The notes beneath the pieces are model-generated. The model was given only the letters and a program-made list of their open reading frames with translations, did not search any database and had not been told where the DNA came from. The position numbers were made by a program, and so were the translations under genes. From a virus: a DNA stretch of 26,539 bases. The stretch lies in the IMG/VR virus record IMGVR_UViG_3300044301_003757, positions 1 to 26,539 of that record. One strand, 5' to 3'. Of this stretch, positions 2,074 to 10,927 are shown piece after piece; position 1 is the stretch's first letter; every line of letters starts with the position of its first letter.

Positions 2074-2297
2074 TTAAAAAAAAAATTGTACAAATAAAAC
2101 AAAAATTTAGTAATGCAGATAATGTCATCGATTTATCGGTGGATATCTTTCTTATGATTTTTGATGTTCTCACAACACCATTACTCATACCTATCAGAAT
2201 AACTAAATATTATATAAAAGGGTGGATAAAAGCATTTATCAAAAGATTCCTTAAAAAAACATATCATAAAATATATGATGAAAATAAAGATGCCTAG
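2070..2297 (+). CDS. Small membrane-associated unknown protein
   Basis: A 75-aa protein with a lysine-rich N-terminus (MIKKKIVQIKQKF), a hydrophobic stretch at about 19-43 (IDLSVDIFLMIFDVLTTPLLIPIRI) and a basic C-terminal half (KGWIKAFIKRFLKKTYHK). The pattern suggests a peripheral or integral inner-membrane protein. GGGCAG lies 6 nt before the ATG, which overlaps the stop of the upstream membrane peptide. No family is recognised. Together with its two upstream neighbours it forms a cluster of membrane proteins in the rightward early transcript. Confidence 0.6.
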   Translation: MIKKKIVQIKQKFSNADNVIDLSVDIFLMIFDVLTTPLLIPIRITKYYIKGWIKAFIKRFLKKTYHKIYDENKDA

Positions 2298-2487
2298 AAA
2301 AGAAAAGAGTGGACAAAAACCAATCAAAAATTTTTTAGTATATCATGGATATGATATTGATACAAAAAATTGGTTTGTAGAAATACAGATACCAGATTTA
2401 GGAATTGGCTCTATAATTAAATGGTTTTATTCAAAATCAGATTATGAAAGAGGATTAAGAAAAGTATTATGGACAATATATAAATAA
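2275..2487 (+). CDS. Small unknown protein
   Basis: A 70-aa protein of unknown function, with a basic N-terminus followed by a mixed region containing NWFVEIQIPDLGIGSI and a C-terminal SDYERGLRKVLWTIYK. The alternating pattern suggests a small alpha/beta domain with no membrane segment. Possible ATGs are at 2275, 2278 and 2290; none has a good ribosome binding site, and the gene probably relies on coupling to the upstream gene, which it overlaps by up to 23 nt. It is the last gene of the rightward transcript before the convergent hairpin. Confidence 0.6.
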   Translation: MMKIKMPRKEKSGQKPIKNFLVYHGYDIDTKNWFVEIQIPDLGIGSIIKWFYSKSDYERGLRKVLWTIYK

Positions 2488-2496
2488 AACAAAACA

Positions 2497-2534
2497 AAAT
2501 TTAATTATACATTTTTTTAATGTACATTAAATTT
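2497..2534. terminator. AT-rich hairpin between convergent operons
   Basis: AAATTTAAT (2497-2505) pairs with ATTAAATTT (2526-2534), and TACATT (2508-2513) pairs with AATGTA (2519-2524), around a T5 loop with a small internal bulge. It sits exactly between a rightward and a leftward operon. GC content is very low, so bidirectional terminator function is an inference from position and symmetry. The same stretch also contains the exact 16-bp palindrome TTTAATGTACATTAAA (2516-2531). Confidence 0.45.
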
Positions 2535-2535
2535 A

Positions 2536-2772
2536 TTACCAACCTTTTCTGTTTTTCTTTTTAACATGAATTACATTTCCTAAAATTAACCTGCCTGCTA
2601 GAGTCGTTGCTTTTGCATTCACTTGACTATTTTGATAAAGTTTTGCCTCATCATTCATAAGAAGACAATCTCCATTTTCTAGTTCAAGTAATTCAACATA
2701 GCCATCAACAAATTCTTGTGCTTCTTCAAGTGTTGGTTCTAATTCACATTCTAAAAATTTAGGCAACTTCAT
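2536..2772 (-). CDS. DUF3846-like phage protein
   Basis: A 78-aa protein resembling the DUF3846 family of small phage and plasmid proteins. The recognisable pattern is PTLEEAQEFVDGYVELLEL, then LLMNDEAKL, NAKAT and the closing GNVIHV. The function of the family is unknown to me. AAAGGATT lies 7 nt upstream of the ATG, inside the end of the upstream gene, which it overlaps by 14 nt. It is the last gene of the leftward early operon. Confidence 0.7.
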   Translation of the reverse strand: MKLPKFLECELEPTLEEAQEFVDGYVELLELENGDCLLMNDEAKLYQNSQVNAKATTLAGRLILGNVIHVKKKNRKGW

Positions 2773-3250
2773 TTTGTAATCCTTTCAAATACCATTGTGG
2801 TGTTTCAATTTTCCATTTTGCAAACCTTGATTTATCTTTTATATAAAATTCTCTGTATGCATCAACATAAAATTTTTTTTTATACTTGTCTGGCATACAT
2901 TGAGGTGGATTTTCCCATACTTCTGAGGAAAAGTTTTTTGGTAAAATACTAAATACTTGATATAATTCCTCTGCTTTATGAATATTATTATATCGTCTTC
3001 TATATTCATTGATACATTCTGACCATAAGTCAAATAAGTAAACATAATGGCGCCAAGATTGACGAACCCATTTCGTACTTGGGTGATTTATAAATGCTTT
3101 TTTATAAAGTTTTGGGTGATTATTATTATCAAGTATTCTATGTGTTGTTGAAAGCATTTGTCCATATTCTAATATCATTTTAACAATATGTTTATCACAA
3201 TGATATCTTCCAGCTTTAAAAGGACATATATCAAGAAAAAATATGTTCAT
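2759..3250 (-). CDS. Pyrimidine-dimer DNA glycosylase family-like protein
   Basis: A 163-aa protein belonging to a widespread phage family usually annotated as pyrimidine-dimer DNA glycosylase/endonuclease V-like. Characteristic segments are the N-terminal FFLDICPFKAGRYHCDKHIVKMILEYGQMLSTTHR, then NHPSTKWVRQSWRHYVYLFDLW, PPQCMPDKYK and a C-terminal AYREFYIKDK...WK. If the annotation holds, it would excise UV lesions, a plausible need for a phage in surface water. I do not see a direct match to T4 DenV sequence, so the enzymatic role rests on family convention. The start overlaps the upstream stop as ATGA. Confidence 0.65.
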   Translation of the reverse strand: MNIFFLDICPFKAGRYHCDKHIVKMILEYGQMLSTTHRILDNNNHPKLYKKAFINHPSTKWVRQSWRHYVYLFDLWSECINEYRRRYNNIHKAEELYQVFSILPKNFSSEVWENPPQCMPDKYKKKFYVDAYREFYIKDKSRFAKWKIETPQWYLKGLQNEVA

Positions 3251-3429
3251 CTTAATATCCGAGGTTTAATTCGTAAAATAGAACATTGTAGGGAAACAGC
3301 ATCACGAGTTTCTTGTGTTTCATCATGAAGGTGATTTTGTATATATTCACACTTGTGGTCTTCAATTATTCCTTTGCTAATGTCCACAGCTTGTTCTTGT
3401 ATCCACTTTTTACTTCTGCGCATTTTCAT
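3247..3429 (-). CDS. Small unknown early protein, 60 aa
   Basis: A 60-aa basic-to-mixed protein (MKMRRSKKWIQEQAVDISKG at the N-terminus) rich in charged residues and histidines, ending RIKPRILR. The open frame extends 21 codons further upstream, but the ATG at 3429 is favoured because GGTGAG lies 4 nt before it. It overlaps the upstream coiled-coil gene by 20 nt and the downstream glycosylase-like gene by 4 nt (ATGA). No family is recognised. Confidence 0.6.
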   Translation of the reverse strand: MKMRRSKKWIQEQAVDISKGIIEDHKCEYIQNHLHDETQETRDAVSLQCSILRIKPRILR

Positions 3430-3661
3430 TTGACTCACCACAATTTTTTTCATATTCATTAATATCTCCACACTCTTTTTCAAAATCTGCAATTTCTTTT
3501 TCTTTTACAACAATCATTTGAGTGATTTGGTCGTGCATTACTTGTAATCTTGCTTTTTCTTCATCCAAACTTGGAATTTTAAAAAAAGTACTATTTAATT
3601 GTTTTTCTACAAGATTAAGTAATCTTTTTAGTCTTGAAATATCGTTAAGTAAATTAACCAT
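3410..3661 (-). CDS. Small coiled-coil unknown protein
   Basis: An 83-aa protein that appears almost wholly helical. Leucines and isoleucines recur at heptad-like spacing (LLNDISRLKRLLNLVEKQL), followed by a second charged helix (VMHDQITQMIVVKEKEIADFEKE). This suggests an antiparallel or dimeric coiled coil. The C-terminus is acidic and asparagine-rich with two cysteines. Its start overlaps the upstream stop by one base (TAATG), and AAGGAG lies just upstream. Function unknown; likely an early host-interaction or replication accessory protein from position only. Confidence 0.6.
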   Translation of the reverse strand: MVNLLNDISRLKRLLNLVEKQLNSTFFKIPSLDEEKARLQVMHDQITQMIVVKEKEIADFEKECGDINEYEKNCGESNENAQK

Positions 3662-3858
3662 TATTTTTCTCCTTTTGTGAAATTATTTCCATATCCAAGA
3701 TTAATAAAATCTTTTTTTGTGACTTTCTTATCTAATACATCTGCTAGAATGTATAATAAATCAATAGTGAAAGGATGTTCTTTTTCAAAAAAATCAACAA
3801 CCATTTTTCCAGTAGCTGGGATTGCGCACCTTGGATTTTTATATCTATTTTTTAACAT
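3661..3858 (-). CDS. Small unknown early protein, 65 aa
   Basis: A 65-aa protein containing KNPRCAIPATGKMVVDFF followed by a hydrophobic helix-like stretch (FTIDLLYILADVLDKK) and ending in NLGYGNNFTKGEK. No family is recognised. The start at 3858 is set by a TAATG overlap with the upstream gene and GGGGAGTGAG just before it. It is the second gene of the leftward operon. Confidence 0.6.
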   Translation of the reverse strand: MLKNRYKNPRCAIPATGKMVVDFFEKEHPFTIDLLYILADVLDKKVTKKDFINLGYGNNFTKGEK

Positions 3859-4040
3859 TATCTCACTCCCCAATCTTCAGCAATTATTTTTCTGCTTTCT
3901 CTTGTGTTATCATATATTCTAACATCATACCCTTCCATGCCTTGCACCTCTGCAAACTCATGGGCTTTAGATAAATCGTTAAAATCTCTTTCTTTAACTT
4001 TATTAGTAGTTTGATATTCTACTGTGTAATATTTTGACAT
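3858..4040 (-). CDS. Small unknown protein, first gene of leftward early operon
   Basis: A 60-aa protein starting MSKYYTVEYQTTNKVKERDF with the alternating pattern of a small beta-rich fold, then DLSKAHEFAEVQGMEGYDVRIYD and a basic-to-acidic tail. AAGGAG lies 6 nt upstream of the ATG, the best ribosome binding site of this operon, as expected for a promoter-proximal gene. Function unknown. Confidence 0.65.
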   Translation of the reverse strand: MSKYYTVEYQTTNKVKERDFNDLSKAHEFAEVQGMEGYDVRIYDNTRESRKIIAEDWGVR

Positions 4041-4064
4041 ATTTTTCTCCTTCTCTTACTATAC

Positions 4065-4093
4065 AATATATTAAATATTACTATAGTCAACAA
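4065..4093 (-). promoter_or_regulatory. Possible promoter of the leftward early operon
   Basis: On the minus strand TTGTTG (4088-4093) is followed after 17 nt by TATATT (4065-4070), a 3/6 and a 5/6 match. An alternative -35, TTGACT, overlaps it at 4085-4090 but gives an unfavourable 14-nt spacing to the same -10. The 112-nt gap between divergent genes must hold promoters for both directions; the rightward one is not convincing. Confidence 0.3.
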
Positions 4094-4152
4094 TTATTTT
4101 ACATTTTGTATAAAAAACTTTACAAATAATATCCAAGGAGTATTTTGTTTTT

Positions 4153-4788
4153 ATGAGCTTTGAATGTATAGCTAAATGCCTACAAATAAATGATATCAGA
4201 CCATCATCAAAATTAGTATTAATTATGTTAGGTAACTTTGCTGATGAAAACTATCAGAGTTATCCATCACACAGTAAACTTGCGCAACTATGTAATTGTG
4301 ATGACAGAACGATTCGTAGATGTATTGAGGAATTAAAAGAAAGAAAGATAATAACAGTTAAAGAAAGATATAAAGATGGCAAACAAATAAGCAACCTATA
4401 TACTATAAATTTTAGGGTGGACAAAAATGTAGATACAAAAGAAAATAGGGTGGACAAAATAGTTGATTTAGGGGGGACAAAAATGTACCACAATACTATC
4501 ATTAATAAACCTATCAATAAGAAGATAATCAATGACTACCCAAAAGACTTTGAAATATTTTGGGAAGAGTATCCAAAGAGTAAAAATAAAAAATTTAAAA
4601 ATGTTTGTTATAAACAATGGAAAAAAGTAAAAGAAAAAGAATTAATGTTACATTGTGTAAAAAATTATAAAAAAGTACAAAACCCAGAATTTATTCATTC
4701 ACCATCAAGATGGATAAGAGATAAACTTTTTTTAGACTTTAAGGAAATAAAAATAGAACAGACAAATAAAAACAACTTAGCAGGATAA
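4153..4788 (+). CDS. Helix-turn-helix replication initiator/loader-like protein
   Basis: A 211-aa protein. Residues about 18-75 form a winged helix-turn-helix of the HTH_36 type: KLVLIMLGNFADENYQSYPS, then the recognition region KLAQLCNCDDRTIRRCIEEL and wing KERKIITVKER. A polar linker (about 90-130) leads to a C-terminal domain, FEIFWEEYPKSKNKKFKN...QWKK, of the kind found in phage replication proteins that follow such a winged helix. It probably binds origin DNA and helps load the primase-helicase encoded one base after its stop. AAGGAG lies 12 nt upstream, a rather long spacing, but no other in-frame start exists nearby. Confidence 0.75.
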   Translation: MSFECIAKCLQINDIRPSSKLVLIMLGNFADENYQSYPSHSKLAQLCNCDDRTIRRCIEELKERKIITVKERYKDGKQISNLYTINFRVDKNVDTKENRVDKIVDLGGTKMYHNTIINKPINKKIINDYPKDFEIFWEEYPKSKNKKFKNVCYKQWKKVKEKELMLHCVKNYKKVQNPEFIHSPSRWIRDKLFLDFKEIKIEQTNKNNLAG

Positions 4789-4789
4789 C

Positions 4790-6499
4790 ATGATAGAAAA
4801 ACTTTTGAACTTAGGAATAAAAATAGATAATCATAATGGTAATTCAAAAACATTTTGTCCAAAATGTAAAGATAATAGAAAATCTCATAATAGACATGAC
4901 ACTCCATTGTCAGTAACTGTTGATAATGAAAAAGCAATATGGAATTGTCATAATTGTGGATATTCTGGAAAACTTAATAGATTTGAAAAACCTCAATTAT
5001 ATAAACCAAAACCAGAAAATAAAAATAGACTTTATGAATGGTTTTCTAAAAGAGGTATTAGTCAAAAGACGATAGATGATTTAGGAATTTATGAATACAA
5101 TGGTTCTATTTGTTTTCCATATATTCAAGATGGGGAAACTTTAAATGTTAAGTACAGAACTTATGATAAAAGATTTACACAAAAACCAAATGCACAGAGA
5201 ACTTTATATAATATTGATAATGTAAAAAAATATTGGAAACTAACTGGCAAAAAAAATCTCATTATTTGTGAGGGTGAAATGGATGTTGTTGCATTTTATG
5301 AGGCAGGAGTCATTAATGCAGTTACCCTTCCAGATGGTGCACCAAAAAAAGCTAAATTTGACTTAAATGATTTAAGATTTAATGCTCTAAAGAATTGTAA
5401 ATGGCTAAATGATGTTGATAAAGTATATTTAGCTACAGACCAAGATGAAGCTGGAAAAGCATTACATTTAGAATTAATACACAGATTCGGAAAAGATAGA
5501 TGTCTACAAGTAAAGTTTCCAAATCAATCTGGTGACATACCTACAAAAGATGCCAATGAGTGTTTAGTAAATTTAGGAAGAAATACTCTAATACAAACTC
5601 TTAAAGATGCAACTCCATACCCTATTGATGGAATTTATACTGTAAGAAATTATAAAAAAGAGATATTTGATATTTATGATGGCAACATACAAAGACCACT
5701 ATCTACTGGTTTTCCTATTTTAGATACTATTTACAAAATACAACCAGCTACATTTCATTTAGTTACTGGAGTTCCGAATCATGGTAAGTCAAACTTTATT
5801 GACCAAATCGCAGTAAACCTATTTAGAAATAATGGATGGAAATTTTGTGTGTTTTCTCCAGAGCATTCAACACCACAACACATAAGAAGAATAGTTGAAA
5901 AAATAATAAAAAAACCTTTTGATACTGGTCTTTCTGAAAGAATGTCAAAAGATGAGTTGTATAAAGGATTAAAAATTTTAAATGAGAACTTCTTTTTTAT
6001 GGAAAATAAAGATAATATACCATCTATAGATTGGATTTTATCCAAAGCAAAACAGAGTGTTTTGAAATTTGGGGTCAAAGGAATAATTATTGACCCATAC
6101 AATGAAATCAATTCAACAAGAGAAGGGAATAAAAGAGAAGATGAACATATTAGAGATATTATTAGTAGCTGTAAAAAGTTCTGTAGAACGCATGAAATCG
6201 TACTATGGATGGTTGCGCACCCAAGTAAAATGCCTCGCAAAGATGATGGTAGCATACAAGTGCCCACGATGTATGATGTTAGTGGCTCTGCTCATTGGAA
6301 TAATATGGCTGATGTTGGCTTGGTAGTTCATAGAGATTTTGAAAACAATTCAACAAGAGTTATCACCAGAAAAATAAGAGAACAAGGTTTATATGGAAAT
6401 ATTGGTGAATGTTTCTTTAAGTTTAATACAGAAAAAAGAGTATATGAAGAAATAATGAATCAAGAAACAGATAAAAGTTATTGGTATAATAATAGTTGA
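4790..6499 (+). CDS. Bifunctional primase-helicase, T7 gp4/Twinkle type
   Basis: A 569-aa replication enzyme that would make primers and unwind the replication fork. An N-terminal zinc-binding primase module carries C23xxC26 and C53xxC56. A TOPRIM domain follows with the catalytic glutamate in CEGEMD (E161) and the metal-binding pair D217xD219. The C-terminal half is a RecA-fold hexameric helicase with Walker A GVPNHGKS (327-334), Walker B IIIDPYNE (432-439) and a WMVAHPSK segment. Length and order match T7 gp4 and mitochondrial Twinkle. It is separated by one base from the initiator-like gene. No DNA polymerase is present in this window, so it must lie elsewhere or come from the host. Confidence 0.9.
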   Translation: MIEKLLNLGIKIDNHNGNSKTFCPKCKDNRKSHNRHDTPLSVTVDNEKAIWNCHNCGYSGKLNRFEKPQLYKPKPENKNRLYEWFSKRGISQKTIDDLGIYEYNGSICFPYIQDGETLNVKYRTYDKRFTQKPNAQRTLYNIDNVKKYWKLTGKKNLIICEGEMDVVAFYEAGVINAVTLPDGAPKKAKFDLNDLRFNALKNCKWLNDVDKVYLATDQDEAGKALHLELIHRFGKDRCLQVKFPNQSGDIPTKDANECLVNLGRNTLIQTLKDATPYPIDGIYTVRNYKKEIFDIYDGNIQRPLSTGFPILDTIYKIQPATFHLVTGVPNHGKSNFIDQIAVNLFRNNGWKFCVFSPEHSTPQHIRRIVEKIIKKPFDTGLSERMSKDELYKGLKILNENFFFMENKDNIPSIDWILSKAKQSVLKFGVKGIIIDPYNEINSTREGNKREDEHIRDIISSCKKFCRTHEIVLWMVAHPSKMPRKDDGSIQVPTMYDVSGSAHWNNMADVGLVVHRDFENNSTRVITRKIREQGLYGNIGECFFKFNTEKRVYEEIMNQETDKSYWYNNS

Positions 6500-6529: not shown

Positions 6530-7117
6530 ATGCAAATTACAGAAGTAGATTTAAGCATAATAAAACCTTACGAAAATAATCCAAGAGTAATTTCTGATGA
6601 AGCAATTCACAAAGTATCAGAAAGTATAAAAAAATTTGGATGGCAACAGCCAATAGTTGTTGATAAAGACTATAATATTATTGTAGGACATACACGATAT
6701 CATGCATCAAAAAGATTAGGCCTTACAAAAGTTCCTGTCAAAATTTTTGAAGATTTATCTCCAGATAAAATATCAGCATATAGACTACTTGATAATAAAT
6801 TAAATGAGCTAACTGAATGGGAGGAAGTGCTCTTGCAGTCAGAATTAAGAGAAATACAGAACTCTGATGATTTAGAAAATTTACTTTTAATATTTGAAAA
6901 AACAACAAAAGAAATTCCTAAGATAGAAAATGATTTTGAAACCTTTGAAAGTGATGAAGGTTCTTATACTATGACTGATGATTTTGTTTCACTTTCATTA
7001 GTTATGACTCCAGAGGATAAAAAATATTGTATTAATACTCTTAAGTCCTTTATGCAGGACCATAATCTTGATACTATGAGCAATGCAATTTTATATATTT
7101 TGAAGGAGAAGATATGA
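6530..7117 (+). CDS. ParB/sulfiredoxin-fold protein, stand-alone
   Basis: A 195-aa protein whose first about 110 residues are a ParB/sulfiredoxin-fold domain: YENNPRV, then GWQQPIVVDKDYNIIVGHTRYHASKRLGL with the conserved GHTR box, and AYRLLDNKLNELTEWEEVLL. This variant is commonly the N-terminal part of phage ParB-DNA methyltransferase fusions. Here no methyltransferase motif (DPPY or similar) follows; instead there is an acidic linker and a short C-terminal helix region. It heads a four-gene cassette: its stop overlaps the cupin start as ATGA. The ATG has no clear ribosome binding site, although a TATAAT is present at 6485-6490. Biochemical activity cannot be read from sequence. Confidence 0.8.
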   Translation: MQITEVDLSIIKPYENNPRVISDEAIHKVSESIKKFGWQQPIVVDKDYNIIVGHTRYHASKRLGLTKVPVKIFEDLSPDKISAYRLLDNKLNELTEWEEVLLQSELREIQNSDDLENLLLIFEKTTKEIPKIENDFETFESDEGSYTMTDDFVSLSLVMTPEDKKYCINTLKSFMQDHNLDTMSNAILYILKEKI

Positions 7118-7797
7118 TTATAAATTATGAGCCAAAACATCTTGATTTTATAGATGCAACAAGAACAATGTATCCCACTAAAACAGTATGGATTACAGAA
7201 AATTATAAACTTGGAAATGAAACATCTACAATCTATGGATATGTTTTAGAAGGACAAGTTGATATAAAAGCTAATAATCAAACTTGGTTGATGCAAGAAG
7301 GAAATTACTTTGCATTTCATGGAGAAGTTGAATTCATTAAGGTAAAGAACACAAAAGTTTGGACAGTAGAAAAAAAGGGTTATAGATGTATGCCATTAGT
7401 AGGGCAAATTGAAGATAATGGTAGATTATCATATATTGATGGTTGTTCAGATTCTGTTTTAGTATCAATGCCAAGAATGGGTGACCCAGTTTTAAATTAT
7501 CTACACTTTCCATCTGGTATATATCAAACACAACACACACACCCATCTATTCGCATGGGTATTGTTATAAAAGGAAGTGGTCAAGCATTTCAAGAAAAAG
7601 ACACATATCAAGATGGTTGGGTAAAAGAATTAAAAAAAGGTTGTATGTTTATGTTAACAGAACAAGAACTTCACTCATTCAGAACAACATCTGATGTAAT
7701 GGATATAATTGCATTTCATCCAGATTCAGATACTGGGCCAACAGACGAAAATCATTCAATGATAAATAGAACCTATATTGACCATGGAAAAAAATAA
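7114..7797 (+). CDS. Double-cupin protein
   Basis: A 227-aa protein with two cupin-like beta-barrels. The N-terminal one (about 25-90) contains YGYVLEGQVDIKANNQTWLMQEGNYFAF. The C-terminal one (about 115-215) contains QTQHTHPSIRMGIVIKGSGQAF, with an HxH metal-binding pair, and a later ELHSFRT histidine. This fits a metal-dependent enzyme or small-molecule-binding protein whose first barrel lacks the HxH pair. AAGGAG lies 6 nt upstream, and the start overlaps the ParB-fold gene as ATGA. Placement between a ParB-fold protein and a PAPS-reductase-like protein suggests it serves the same pathway. The substrate is unknown. Confidence 0.75.
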   Translation: MIINYEPKHLDFIDATRTMYPTKTVWITENYKLGNETSTIYGYVLEGQVDIKANNQTWLMQEGNYFAFHGEVEFIKVKNTKVWTVEKKGYRCMPLVGQIEDNGRLSYIDGCSDSVLVSMPRMGDPVLNYLHFPSGIYQTQHTHPSIRMGIVIKGSGQAFQEKDTYQDGWVKELKKGCMFMLTEQELHSFRTTSDVMDIIAFHPDSDTGPTDENHSMINRTYIDHGKK

Positions 7798-7816
7798 AAT
7801 AGTCAAAGGCAAAATT

Positions 7817-9016
7817 ATGGGGAGGAAAAAGAATGCTGGTAAAAGCTGTCTTGAACTGGCTAGAGAGAGGTTAGAAATAGCATTTGATAAACTTGATACT
7901 CTGATAGTTATGTTTTCTGGAGGCAAGGATAGTACTGCTTGTCTTAATCTTATGTTAGAACTTTATGAGAAAAAAGGTATAGAAAAAAAGTTAGAAGTTC
8001 ATCACTTTGATGAGGAAGCTATTCCTTTTGAAACAGAACATTATGTTCGCAGAGTTGCACAGTTAAAAAATGTAGAATTAAAATGGTGGTGTATTCCAGT
8101 AAAACATAGAAATGGTTGTTCAAAAACTTCTCCATTTTGGTATCCATGGGCGCCAGAAGAAAAAGAGAAATGGGTCAGACCCCTTCCTCCAGAAGCCATA
8201 ACAGAGTTACAAGGTTTTCCAGAAAAGGTAGAAGATCGATTAGCTATACCAGATTTGAATGGTCTTTTATTTAATCCTAAGAAATATGGCAATGTTGGTT
8301 TGGTTATGGGTATTCGTGCAGATGAATCTATCACAAGGTTAAGAGCAGTTTTGTCTGGAAGAAATAGAGAAGATGCATTTATAATTCCATTTAATGAGGG
8401 TACAGCACAAAAAAATGTTTATAAAGTATATCCGATTTATGATTGGGTCACTGCAGATGTATGGACAGCTCCTAAAAAGCTCGGTTGGGATTATAACACC
8501 ACTTATGATATTTATGATAAAATTGGTCTTGCACCGAAAGACCAGAGAGTAGCACCTCCCTATGGGGAAGAACCAATGCGAGGATTATATCAATACAGAG
8601 AATGTTTTCCAGATATATGGGAGAAGATGCAGACAAGGGTTCCAGGAGCATCTACTGCCGCAAGGTACTCACATACCTATGTATATGCTTATGGTAAACT
8701 GCCGCCAAAACCTTCGGATATGGAATGGATTGAGTTTCTAAAGTTTTGGGTTGGCAGACATAAAAAAGAATACAGAAATCAAATATATGAGCAAATAAAA
8801 ACCTTCATAAATAGTCATTATACAAAAACGAAAGAACCAATATTACAAAAAAATATACATCCATTAACTGGTATTTCTTGGGAGTTTCTTTTAAGAATAG
8901 CAATTAGAGGAGATTTTAAAGGAAGAAAGCTACCACGATTTGCATTAGATGACAAAGAATATATAACATTAAGGAGAAAATATAATGAAGCAAGGTATTC
9001 AAAATCAACCAATTAG
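7817..9016 (+). CDS. PAPS-reductase-like PP-loop protein, IbrA-like
   Basis: A 399-aa member of the PP-loop/PAPS-reductase superfamily. The nucleotide-binding loop is MFSGGKDST (about residues 31-39). It is followed by HHFDEEAIPFE, a GIRADES...R box and YPIYDWVTADVW, features of the stand-alone phage and bacterial group that includes E. coli IbrA, not of assimilatory reductases. I see no CCxxRK/ECGLH cysteine pattern of the latter. PP-loop enzymes activate a substrate with ATP, often in sulfur transfer. The ATG at 7817 is chosen for its upstream AAAGG; alternatives are ATG 7784 and TTG 7778. An IbrB-like partner follows, overlapping by 32 nt. Confidence 0.85.
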   Translation: MGRKKNAGKSCLELARERLEIAFDKLDTLIVMFSGGKDSTACLNLMLELYEKKGIEKKLEVHHFDEEAIPFETEHYVRRVAQLKNVELKWWCIPVKHRNGCSKTSPFWYPWAPEEKEKWVRPLPPEAITELQGFPEKVEDRLAIPDLNGLLFNPKKYGNVGLVMGIRADESITRLRAVLSGRNREDAFIIPFNEGTAQKNVYKVYPIYDWVTADVWTAPKKLGWDYNTTYDIYDKIGLAPKDQRVAPPYGEEPMRGLYQYRECFPDIWEKMQTRVPGASTAARYSHTYVYAYGKLPPKPSDMEWIEFLKFWVGRHKKEYRNQIYEQIKTFINSHYTKTKEPILQKNIHPLTGISWEFLLRIAIRGDFKGRKLPRFALDDKEYITLRRKYNEARYSKSTN

Positions 9017-9506
9017 TGAAGTAAAGTGGGTGCATAGAGATACACTCAAGGCAAATAATTATAATCCAAATAAAGTTGCGCCTATGGAGTTAAAACTTTT
9101 AATAGAATCAATACTAACTTGTGGGTGGACAACTCCAATAGTCATAAGGTCAGATAATGAGATTGTTGATGGCTTTCATAGGTGGACAATATCTTCAGAT
9201 AAAAGAATATATGAGAAGCTAGAGGGAATGGTTCCTGTCGTAGTTATGGATGACTCAATGAAAATGTCGGAACAAATATCTGCTACAATTACACATAACA
9301 GAGCAAGAGGTTCGCATTATGTTATGAAAATGGCTAATATAGTTCGTGATTTAAAAGATAATCATTCACAAGATGATGAATGGATAAAAAAACATTTAGG
9401 TATGGAACAAGAAGAAATTGATAGATTGTATGATAATTCCAATTCCACCCAAACAAAAAGCGAAGATAACTTTAATGAAGGGTGGATTGGAGATTTCTCA
9501 AAATAA
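8985..9506 (+). CDS. ParB-fold protein, IbrB-like partner
   Basis: A 173-aa protein closely resembling IbrB-type ParB/sulfiredoxin-fold proteins. It has the run WVHRDTLKANNYNPNKVAP, then GWTTPIVIRSDNEIVDGFHRW with the conserved DGFHR, then ATITHNRARGSH, WIKKHLGMEQEEIDRL and a short FNEGW near the C-terminus. The HNRARG box is diagnostic of the IbrB-like subgroup that is encoded beside IbrA-like PP-loop proteins. AAGGAG lies 8 nt before the ATG. It overlaps the IbrA-like gene, so the pair is translationally coupled. The known IbrA/IbrB pair was described as a regulator of immunoglobulin-binding proteins in E. coli; the biochemical activity remains unclear to me. Confidence 0.85.
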   Translation: MKQGIQNQPISEVKWVHRDTLKANNYNPNKVAPMELKLLIESILTCGWTTPIVIRSDNEIVDGFHRWTISSDKRIYEKLEGMVPVVVMDDSMKMSEQISATITHNRARGSHYVMKMANIVRDLKDNHSQDDEWIKKHLGMEQEEIDRLYDNSNSTQTKSEDNFNEGWIGDFSK

Positions 9507-9926
9507 TTAAAATATATTATAATGAGATTCCCTATATGATGAAGTTCGAGCATCATATAGGAACTGGGTATCAAGAGAAAAATTTTCATAACCTTCTTTT
9601 ATAGTATTAAAATATCCTCTTGATGGGGGAGATATACGATTAGTTGTCATCACATAAGTCATAGCAACTTCATCATCTAGTTTAAAAAATAATTTATCAT
9701 ATAGGTGGGGAAAACCCTCATAAATATCTAGTGCTTCTTCACACCTTTCTGTGATTTCCCAGACACCCATAGGACAATGTGAACCATGTGATTCCTCAAT
9801 ATCTGCAACTCCTCTAAAAATAAGTCTAAAATTTGGAATCAAAATTCTTCCCAAAGGTTTTGCATTTGGACATCTCATGCTCATCTGACTTTTATTCAGA
9901 TTACTTCCATAAGCTAGATACTTCAT
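9507..9926 (-). CDS. Gamma-glutamylcyclotransferase (GGCT/AIG2-like)
   Basis: A 139-aa protein with the GGCT-like fold. The N-terminal signature YLAYGSNLNKSQMSMRCPNA is the substrate-loop motif of the family, followed by MGVWEIT, a conserved acidic EALDIYEGFPHLYDK (the catalytic glutamate is expected here) and TYVM. Such enzymes cleave gamma-glutamyl amides, releasing 5-oxoproline. The gene overlaps the upstream amidoligase gene by one base (TAATG), with AAAGGA in front. Amidoligase-cyclotransferase pairing is a known neighbourhood for the AIG2 family. The last codons contain a perfect hairpin and the stop directly abuts the convergent gene. Confidence 0.85.
   Translation of the reverse strand: MKYLAYGSNLNKSQMSMRCPNAKPLGRILIPNFRLIFRGVADIEESHGSHCPMGVWEITERCEEALDIYEGFPHLYDKLFFKLDDEVAMTYVMTTNRISPPSRGYFNTIKEGYENFSLDTQFLYDARTSSYRESHYNIF
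9531..9561. terminator. Perfect hairpin in the convergent junction
   Basis: CCTATATGATG (9531-9541) and CATCATATAGG (9551-9561) are exact reverse complements around a 9-nt loop. It lies inside the last 20 codons of the leftward cyclotransferase gene and about 25 nt past the end of the rightward IbrB-like gene. The two genes leave no intergenic base, so a bidirectional terminator must be coding here. Downstream on the minus strand is AT-rich but lacks a clean U-tract, so strength is uncertain. Confidence 0.5.
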
Positions 9927-10927
9927 TATGCAGTCCTTTCTAAATCTTGACGACCTCTGAAGTAATAAGATACTTTCTCATCTATACCATTCCAAAGATT
10001 GTCTTCTATACCACAAACATTAGTAAGAAACTGTGCCAATCTTTCTTGATTTATAACTCTTGAACGACCACTTCCATCATAAAGAATTCTAAGTTGGGAA
10101 GTTGAGCATATTGAACTTACAACAAACTCACCATTTACTGGCTTTACTATGCACCATTTTCCATTTTTAAATTGAAGCTGTCTGTTGTGAAGTCTTAATC
10201 TGTTATTTATTTCAGAAAACTTCTGAGTCAACTTTGGAGTTCTTATTGACACATCTTCTCTAATATGACTGTCTTGATTTTTGTGAGATTCAGCTACAAA
10301 ATCCATAAGAAATAAAATCCAGTTTTTTATTTTGAAAGCACTTAGTGTTCCAGAATGATGTCTAAATTCTATAGTTCTTGTTCTACTTGTAAGATTGCTT
10401 GTATTTACTTTTGAGAATTTGTTTCCAACTAAGTCTACTAATGTATTAGGTCTTGCTGTTTGTTGTCTTGAAAAATCAATATTAACTAAACTTCTACAGT
10501 AGTTGTTAGAATTTCCTTGTCTACTTGGTGGCATGAATCTATCAATATCAGACTCAAACTGTTTATATCTATCAACAATTTTTCTAATTGTTTTACCACT
10601 CATTGATTCCCAAGAAATATGAACATGTAATCCACATTGTCTGTTTACTGTTGCATTTGATTTTTGTAATGCATCACAAACTGCATCAATTTGGTCTAAG
10701 TTATCAATAGTAAGAACTGGAGAAACTAATTCACCACCTCTCATATTTCTTCCATAACCTCTTGATACTGAGCTATCAGAACAAACTTTCCAAACTGTAA
10801 AGTTGTTTGAAGCATGATATCCTTCTTGAATGTTAGTAATAGATTTTTGATTTAAGTTGCTTTGAACTGTTGATGCTTTTGCATCTTTGTATTCAATTTC
10901 AACTCCGAACTTTATAGTATTTTTCAT
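9926..10927 (-). CDS. Amidoligase (Amidoligase_2 family)
   Basis: A 333-aa protein of the COOH-NH2 ligase/amidoligase family, a glutamine-synthetase-like fold that joins a carboxylate to an amine. Motifs in order are FGVEIEY at the N-terminus, RGGELVSPVL (about 64-73), CGLHVHIS (about 98-105) and RTIEFRHHSGTL (about 184-195), which supply the acidic and histidine residues of the ATP/metal site. The C-terminal ~100 residues are less familiar. GGGAG lies 5 nt before the ATG. The downstream cyclotransferase could hydrolyse or edit the gamma-linked product. The pair stands alone on the minus strand between rightward modules, like an accessory insertion. Confidence 0.85.
   Translation of the reverse strand: MKNTIKFGVEIEYKDAKASTVQSNLNQKSITNIQEGYHASNNFTVWKVCSDSSVSRGYGRNMRGGELVSPVLTIDNLDQIDAVCDALQKSNATVNRQCGLHVHISWESMSGKTIRKIVDRYKQFESDIDRFMPPSRQGNSNNYCRSLVNIDFSRQQTARPNTLVDLVGNKFSKVNTSNLTSRTRTIEFRHHSGTLSAFKIKNWILFLMDFVAESHKNQDSHIREDVSIRTPKLTQKFSEINNRLRLHNRQLQFKNGKWCIVKPVNGEFVVSSICSTSQLRILYDGSGRSRVINQERLAQFLTNVCGIEDNLWNGIDEKVSYYFRGRQDLERTA

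Follow-up and report, generated by a model that had tools for sequence, protein, structure and literature searches.

An IbrA/IbrB-type phage operon with an exchangeable gene slot and its possible role in small-molecule-dependent modification

What do two ParB-fold proteins, a cupin and a PP-loop enzyme accomplish when they are encoded side by side in a phage? The question is raised by the window analysed here, the whole of a 26.5-kb virus record (26,539 nucleotides) in which Pfam and PHROG scans identified HK97-type portal, terminase, protease and major head genes; two further contigs match the window region with 100% identity. A first-pass annotation had marked positions 6530-9506 as a tightly packed four-gene cassette, and all four ORFs are indeed present there, the domain scans concurring. 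Gene A (6530..7117, + strand) encodes a ParB/sulfiredoxin-fold protein of 195 aa, as assigned from the ORF list, Pfam, PHROG and structure-profile matches, and gene B (7114..7797, +) a double-cupin enzyme of 227 aa, assigned from the ORF list, Pfam, conservation, AlphaFold and Foldseek. Gene C (7817..9016, +) encodes an IbrA-like member of the PP-loop ATP pyrophosphatase family with DUF3440, according to the ORF list, Pfam, PHROG and the starts of homologues, and gene D (8985..9506, +) an IbrB-like ParB-fold protein, recognised from the ORF list, PHROG, conservation, AlphaFold and Foldseek. The ORF list started C at a TTG at 7778; because most homologues begin aligning at residues 10-16 of the listed protein and the ATG at 7817 is preceded by AAAGG, the TTG is probably too early and C would be about 399 aa long. 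With the later start, A and B overlap by 4 nt, B and C are separated by 19 nt and C and D overlap by 32 nt. Shine-Dalgarno-like sequences precede B, C and D, none being obvious for A, and the cassette begins 30 nt after a co-directional primase-helicase gene; a promoter scan gave sites no more numerous than in shuffled sequence. A convergent GGCT-like/amidoligase pair (9507-10927, - strand) comes after D and is kept in close relatives, while in L022, L027 and L045 it lies upstream of the replication genes, and it therefore travels separately from A-D.

The four genes belong together in relatives as well. Their joint conservation was the main check on the cassette, and the order A-B-C-D is strongly kept across diverged phages, at about 25-80% identity and in almost all retrieved relatives whose length allows it to be seen; it occurs in dozens of divergent IMG/VR phages whose backbones are unrelated. 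Queries with C and B gave 62 IMG/VR loci, and nearly all of those spanning the region have A, B, C and D in order. In about 20 of the 62 the cassette lies in another setting: no relative of the window's initiator gene could be recognised there, and in most of these loci its portal or primase-helicase was likewise missing at the sensitivity used. By profile search, B has 535 viral relatives; 43 of 67 newly fetched loci from this search contain ABCD in whole or in part, and B stands without A, C and D in 24 by count, at most 23 of them true cases, as L203 shows all four genes on closer listing. The 75 new loci from a profile search with D comprise 35 with ABCD, 20 with ACD and 7 with CD, the remainder including rearranged linked sets. 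B stays linked even in shuffled orders (ACDB, AACDB, BCDA and CDB). A grouping of this kind, judged by sequence comparison, far exceeds what chance would produce.

Scanning genomes with B added 113 bacterial relatives; cellular homologues of B occur, for example, in Maricaulis and Lewinella. Among the loci listed, the full A-B-C-D run is found in Bacteroidota L116 (Crocinitomicaceae) and L142 (Chitinophagaceae), the cassette of bacterial locus L127 is cut at the locus end, and L126 (Gemmatimonadota) contains C, D, a short PAPS-reductase and B, followed by a terminase. These bacterial loci look like prophages. The terminase accompanies only some of the loci (18 of 49, by a profile that may miss divergent terminases), and the early impression that it was a universal trait was dropped after this count. 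Additional genes accompany some cassettes: a conserved 164-aa protein without a Pfam family lies between C and D (L034 9802-10293; also L035, L036 and L048), a second short PAPS-reductase-like PP-loop protein occurs with others (L026 4875, L028 8502, L046 3458, L279 6513 and L126 1384), and a SET-domain protein is encoded within the L026 cassette (4424-4882).

C and D clearly belong to the IbrA/IbrB (YbdN/YbdM) families, phrog_2302 (7.7e-81) and phrog_2159 (4e-64) respectively, and are adjacent, in the same order as the IbrA/IbrB pair of Taranis, the S. thermophilus phage CHPC1148 and PhiR5_2. C also matches PAPS_reduct (1.6e-9) and DUF3440 (1.5e-12) in Pfam, and DndC weakly. Its ATP pyrophosphatase motifs, SGGKDS and GxRxxES..R (here GIRxxES..R), are invariant. 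The CysH catalytic motif ECGxH (ECGLH-type) is found in 0 of 110 C proteins, and assimilatory PAPS or sulfate reduction is rejected for C on this ground. C105 (98%) is the only cysteine conserved throughout all cassette types, C114 being absent in the C of the ectoine synthase (EctC) type, and the conserved multi-cysteine Fe-S set of DndC-like proteins is not present. The sulfur chemistry implied at first pass is thus weakened, by the lack of the CysH motif and by the single cysteine conserved across cassette types.

D matches Pfam ParB_N weakly, under the Pfam cut-off, and has the motifs DGFHR and TIxHNRARGxH. Its AlphaFold model (pLDDT 79, a moderate confidence) shows a ParB fold and, toward the C-terminal side, HTH-like helices; the best Foldseek matches of this model are ParB/Noc, free serine kinase and sulfiredoxin being also among the matches. 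A serine-kinase-like role is not preferred, since ParB/Noc match better than SerK. The assignment of A is based on ParB_N (PF02195, 6.5e-13), phrog_620 and profile matches to Noc/ParB and sulfiredoxin structures; the protein contains GHTR and ADN motifs, the invariant residues N17, R19, G53 and R56, and a second small domain at its C-terminus. None of the scanned ORFs in or beside the cassette is ParA-like, and a plasmid-type ParB partition system is rejected because it would have no ParA partner.

The IbrA/IbrB pair is already known, and the cassette is an IbrAB-type variant in which the cupin and an exchangeable slot are new. Escherichia coli ybdNM, which is repressed by CitR (PMC9068703), is without the second ParB and the slot cupin that are present here. 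In phages vB_RanS_PJN03 and Mwe-JY13, too, two ParB genes and an IbrA-like gene form a continuous run, followed in PJN03 immediately by a small ORF and the terminase, but a cupin is missing and both ParB genes precede C. No description of the four-gene unit, of a cupin cassette or of an exchangeable slot was found in the literature, in which IbrA/IbrB wording is partly swamped by unrelated uses. The first-pass view of an IbrA/IbrB pair joined by an extra ParB and a cupin was right, with the amendment that the cupin is one of several alternatives.

Comparison across the loci indicates that the operon core is C and D, usually with A, and that B occupies an exchangeable slot. In loci with A, C and D, a different gene is often fitted tightly in between A and C and encodes either a Na+:solute symporter (SSF, PF00474, about 2e-19) or a TctC receptor (PF03401, 1e-34 to 1e-38) that starts with a signal-peptide-like stretch; among solved structures the symporter is nearest to DUR3 and the receptor to BugD, which indicates family only. 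Between A and C, L237 has a divergent cupin-like ORF (2249-3214) and a class-II glutamine amidotransferase (3192-4664). The slot gene varies even among close relatives: L227 has a cupin where L231 and L234 have SSF, and L238 and L239 have a cupin where L240, L242, L248 and L250 have TctC. In the tree of C, loci with the cupin and loci without it are clustered yet interleaved, with 8 changes, at least 5 of them forced by strong branches, versus 20.4 in shuffles. Exactly one of B, EctC, SSF and TctC was found in 53 of 61 non-redundant loci with room on both sides and two in none (36 B, 12 EctC, 4 SSF, 1 TctC, 8 with none), in a sample shaped by the queries whose relatedness is lessened by clustering and not removed. 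A sample obtained with the D query only (27 B, 6 SSF, 2 TctC, 6 none) again contained no overlap, the chance of which is 3e-5, or 2.6e-3 at 70% clustering, relatedness not being removed here either. Hundreds of uncultured phages have a compact IbrA/IbrB operon with one exchangeable gene.

The cupin of the window matches Cupin_2 (2.3e-7) and also the AraC-binding profile. Its AlphaFold model (pLDDT 89) contains two cupin barrels, and Foldseek matches it to double cupins including BacB, AerE and ureidoglycine aminohydrolase; no substrate can be read from this search, because the matches are generic double cupins at about 14% identity. The second cupin contains a putative metal site, the invariant H141/H143/H187, and E100, R104, Y107, C111, D113, N128, Q138, R147, H202, D204, D206, H214, N218, R219 and T220 are invariant too. 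The model points to a double-cupin metalloenzyme with a putative metal-binding histidine set. Because the invariant His/Asp/Arg set is common to phage and bacterial homologues, B is most probably catalytically active, on a single class of substrate. It is not an ectoine synthase by profile, the match to PF06339 reaching 18.2 bits (cut-off 27) over a 54-residue stretch only, and it has no match in PHROG or in the cultured-phage collection.

Outside the cassette, a large share of the bacterial relatives of B adjoin Asn-synthase-type neighbours, either PF00733 or short SGGIDST/GEHGDQLFG proteins that hhalign ties with probability 94 to the PF00733 group; NeuB sugar-biosynthesis or candidate NRPS-like neighbours occur with some, the latter proposed from protein length. 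Viruses with B only have a short Asn-synthase-like gene beside it. There are thus three settings, the cassette, bacteria and B-only viruses, in which B is accompanied by a PP-loop ATPase. The B-only viral loci L187-L210, in which B and the short Asn-synthase-like PP-loop gene lie in large virus contigs, possibly represent a separate pathway.

Among cultured phages, matches to D and C have nearly equal organism counts (221 versus 215 records), and many of these phages have C and D without a recognised slot gene. In the Faecalibacterium phage Taranis the order is membrane protein, A-type ParB, IbrA, IbrB and terminase. The EctC version of the slot was encountered in mycobacteriophage Gaia, whose gp104 is an ectoine synthase (PF06339, 1.3e-32) fused to a D-type ParB and adjoins C, in Nebkiss, which like Gaia is a phage of M. 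smegmatis mc2 155 and has C next to a full ectoine synthase fused to a D-type ParB, and, by annotation, in Pseudoalteromonas phage XCL1123, with the same fusion beside C. A viral search with the Gaia fusion gave C-EctC-D in 35 loci, 14 fused and 21 split. Gaia and XCL1123 thus resemble the cassette in having an IbrA-like C beside a cupin enzyme joined physically to a D-type ParB; they differ from it in that their EctC is single-domain, fused or adjacent to D, and A is missing, whereas B is of another, double-cupin family without a Gaia-type EctC match in the profile used. Fusobacterium phage phiFN37 (L288 9805-11026) has a ParB-like gene directly before a queuine tRNA-ribosyltransferase homologue, an arrangement reminiscent of 7-deazaguanine DNA modification.

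Amino-acid or prephenate-derived acids are the substrates of EctC and of the BacB- and AerE-like cupins, carboxylates are the ligands of TctC/Bug proteins, and SSF transporters bring solutes of this kind into the cell. The simplest common reading of the slot genes would be a small carboxylate activated by C. We propose, tentatively and at somewhat less than an even chance, that the cassette is a phage small-molecule-dependent modification module built on IbrA/IbrB, whose target is nucleic acid and most likely the phage's own DNA. The slot gene would supply a small, probably amino-acid-like carboxylate, which the cupins (B or the ectoine-synthase type) would synthesise and the SSF symporter or the secreted TctC/Bug receptor would import. 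C would activate the carboxylate with ATP by adenylation, and D, with its nucleotide-binding ParB fold and HTH-like helices, would together with A direct the transfer to the nucleic-acid target, most likely the phage DNA before packaging, for protection from host defences. The conserved operon, the slot exchange and the recurrent pairing of cupin and PP-loop enzyme are apparent from comparison of the loci, and the idea of small-molecule supply is well supported by this comparison; from these we infer the nature of the compound, the adenylation of its carboxylate, the DNA target and the anti-restriction purpose. Against the proposal stand the regulatory phenotype of IbrAB, the partial terminase linkage, the lack of a known base handle in the tested phage records and the many cultured phages that have C and D without a recognised slot gene; moreover, the cupin, the ectoine synthase, the symporter and the receptor need not serve one compound.

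The anatomy of the cassette is compatible with the nucleotide- or DNA-modification or counter-defence role suggested at first pass, because D combines a ParB fold with HTH-like helices, C is of the ATP pyrophosphatase type and DndB/DndC, the ParB and PP-loop pair of DNA phosphorothioation (PMC10853773), is a comparable pair. As in the cassette, a ParB-superfamily protein is paired there with a PAPS-reductase-like PP-loop enzyme; C, however, is without the multi-cysteine Fe-S set, and a cupin or a transporter is present instead. No PADLOC match to DndD or DndE was obtained in 10 further ORFs of the window, which is a fragment. A second parallel is CmoY, an AMP-forming PP-loop amide ligase of phages, homologous to Asn synthetase, which ligates glycine to carboxymethylcytosine in DNA and often has ParB-domain genes nearby (PMC12783734). 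The CmoA/CmoX/CmoY system shares with the cassette a PP-loop enzyme near ParB-domain genes, but CmoY is of the Asn-synthetase type and C of the IbrA type. A homologue of the cytosine C5-carboxymethyltransferase, from the DNA C5-methyltransferase family PF00145, was found in 0 of 30 phage records, control genomes being positive, and CmoX/CmoY cytosine carboxymethylation is rejected accordingly; thymidylate-synthase-type base hydroxymethylation was likewise set aside (PF00303 in 0 of 20 records). No known base handle is visible, because neither type of gene occurs in the tested phage records.

The foremost alternative to modification, although unlikely, is regulation: C and D would co-activate expression, and the slot gene would deliver a metabolite as the signal by which transcription of the phage or host is tuned. 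IbrAB is reported to activate prophage eib genes (Sandt 2002, cited in PMC10434257), the sole published IbrAB phenotype. The ParB fold and HTH-like helices of D would suit such a role, and so would the slot cupin, as cupins are common ligand-sensing domains and B matches the AraC-binding profile. A pure sensor, however, would need neither the full catalytic PP-loop set retained by C nor the invariant His/Asp/Arg set that B has in common with cellular enzymes, and the EctC domains of the D fusions align with ectoine synthase along their full length.

Slightly less probable is transfer of the small molecule onto a protein, RNA or the nucleotide pool, for instance as a means to disarm a nucleotide-based host defence. 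tRNA is a frequent substrate of PP-loop enzymes, and ParB/sulfiredoxin folds include small-molecule and protein kinases, in line with the free serine kinase and sulfiredoxin among the structural matches of D; its HTH-like helices and its best matches, the DNA-binding ParB/Noc, argue instead for DNA. Metabolic support, with C a CysH-type reductase and slot genes that provide the infected cell with compatible solutes or nutrients, is very improbable: C does match PAPS_reduct, phage PF01507 genes are routinely named cysH in surveys (PMC9301287), and ectoine synthase and symporters are typical osmolyte genes, but ECGxH is missing from all 110 C proteins, in which a single cysteine is conserved throughout, neither sulfate assimilation nor osmolyte uptake has a use for two ParB-fold partners, and the cassettes are spread over unrelated phage backbones.

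Modification by a supplied metabolite may have a wider compass. IbrA/IbrB-type modules could make up a large group of phage systems that hypermodify DNA or RNA: a C-type ligase would couple a small carboxylate to the nucleic acid, and the slot would set the source and perhaps the identity of this compound, the product being a modification not yet described; such an extension is less likely than not. IbrA/IbrB genes are found in more than 200 sequenced phages of the collection searched and in many more uncultured ones, and surveys often count the IbrA-type gene as a sulfur-assimilation gene (PMC9301287). The coupling of IbrA/IbrB to interchangeable make-or-import genes provides the first concrete biochemical lead, and the slot exchange predicts a metabolite co-substrate for the pair. 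Our analysis suggests an ATP-dependent attachment of a metabolite, by IbrAB, to DNA or another target, and the IbrAB puzzle becomes testable in the cultured carrier phages named here.
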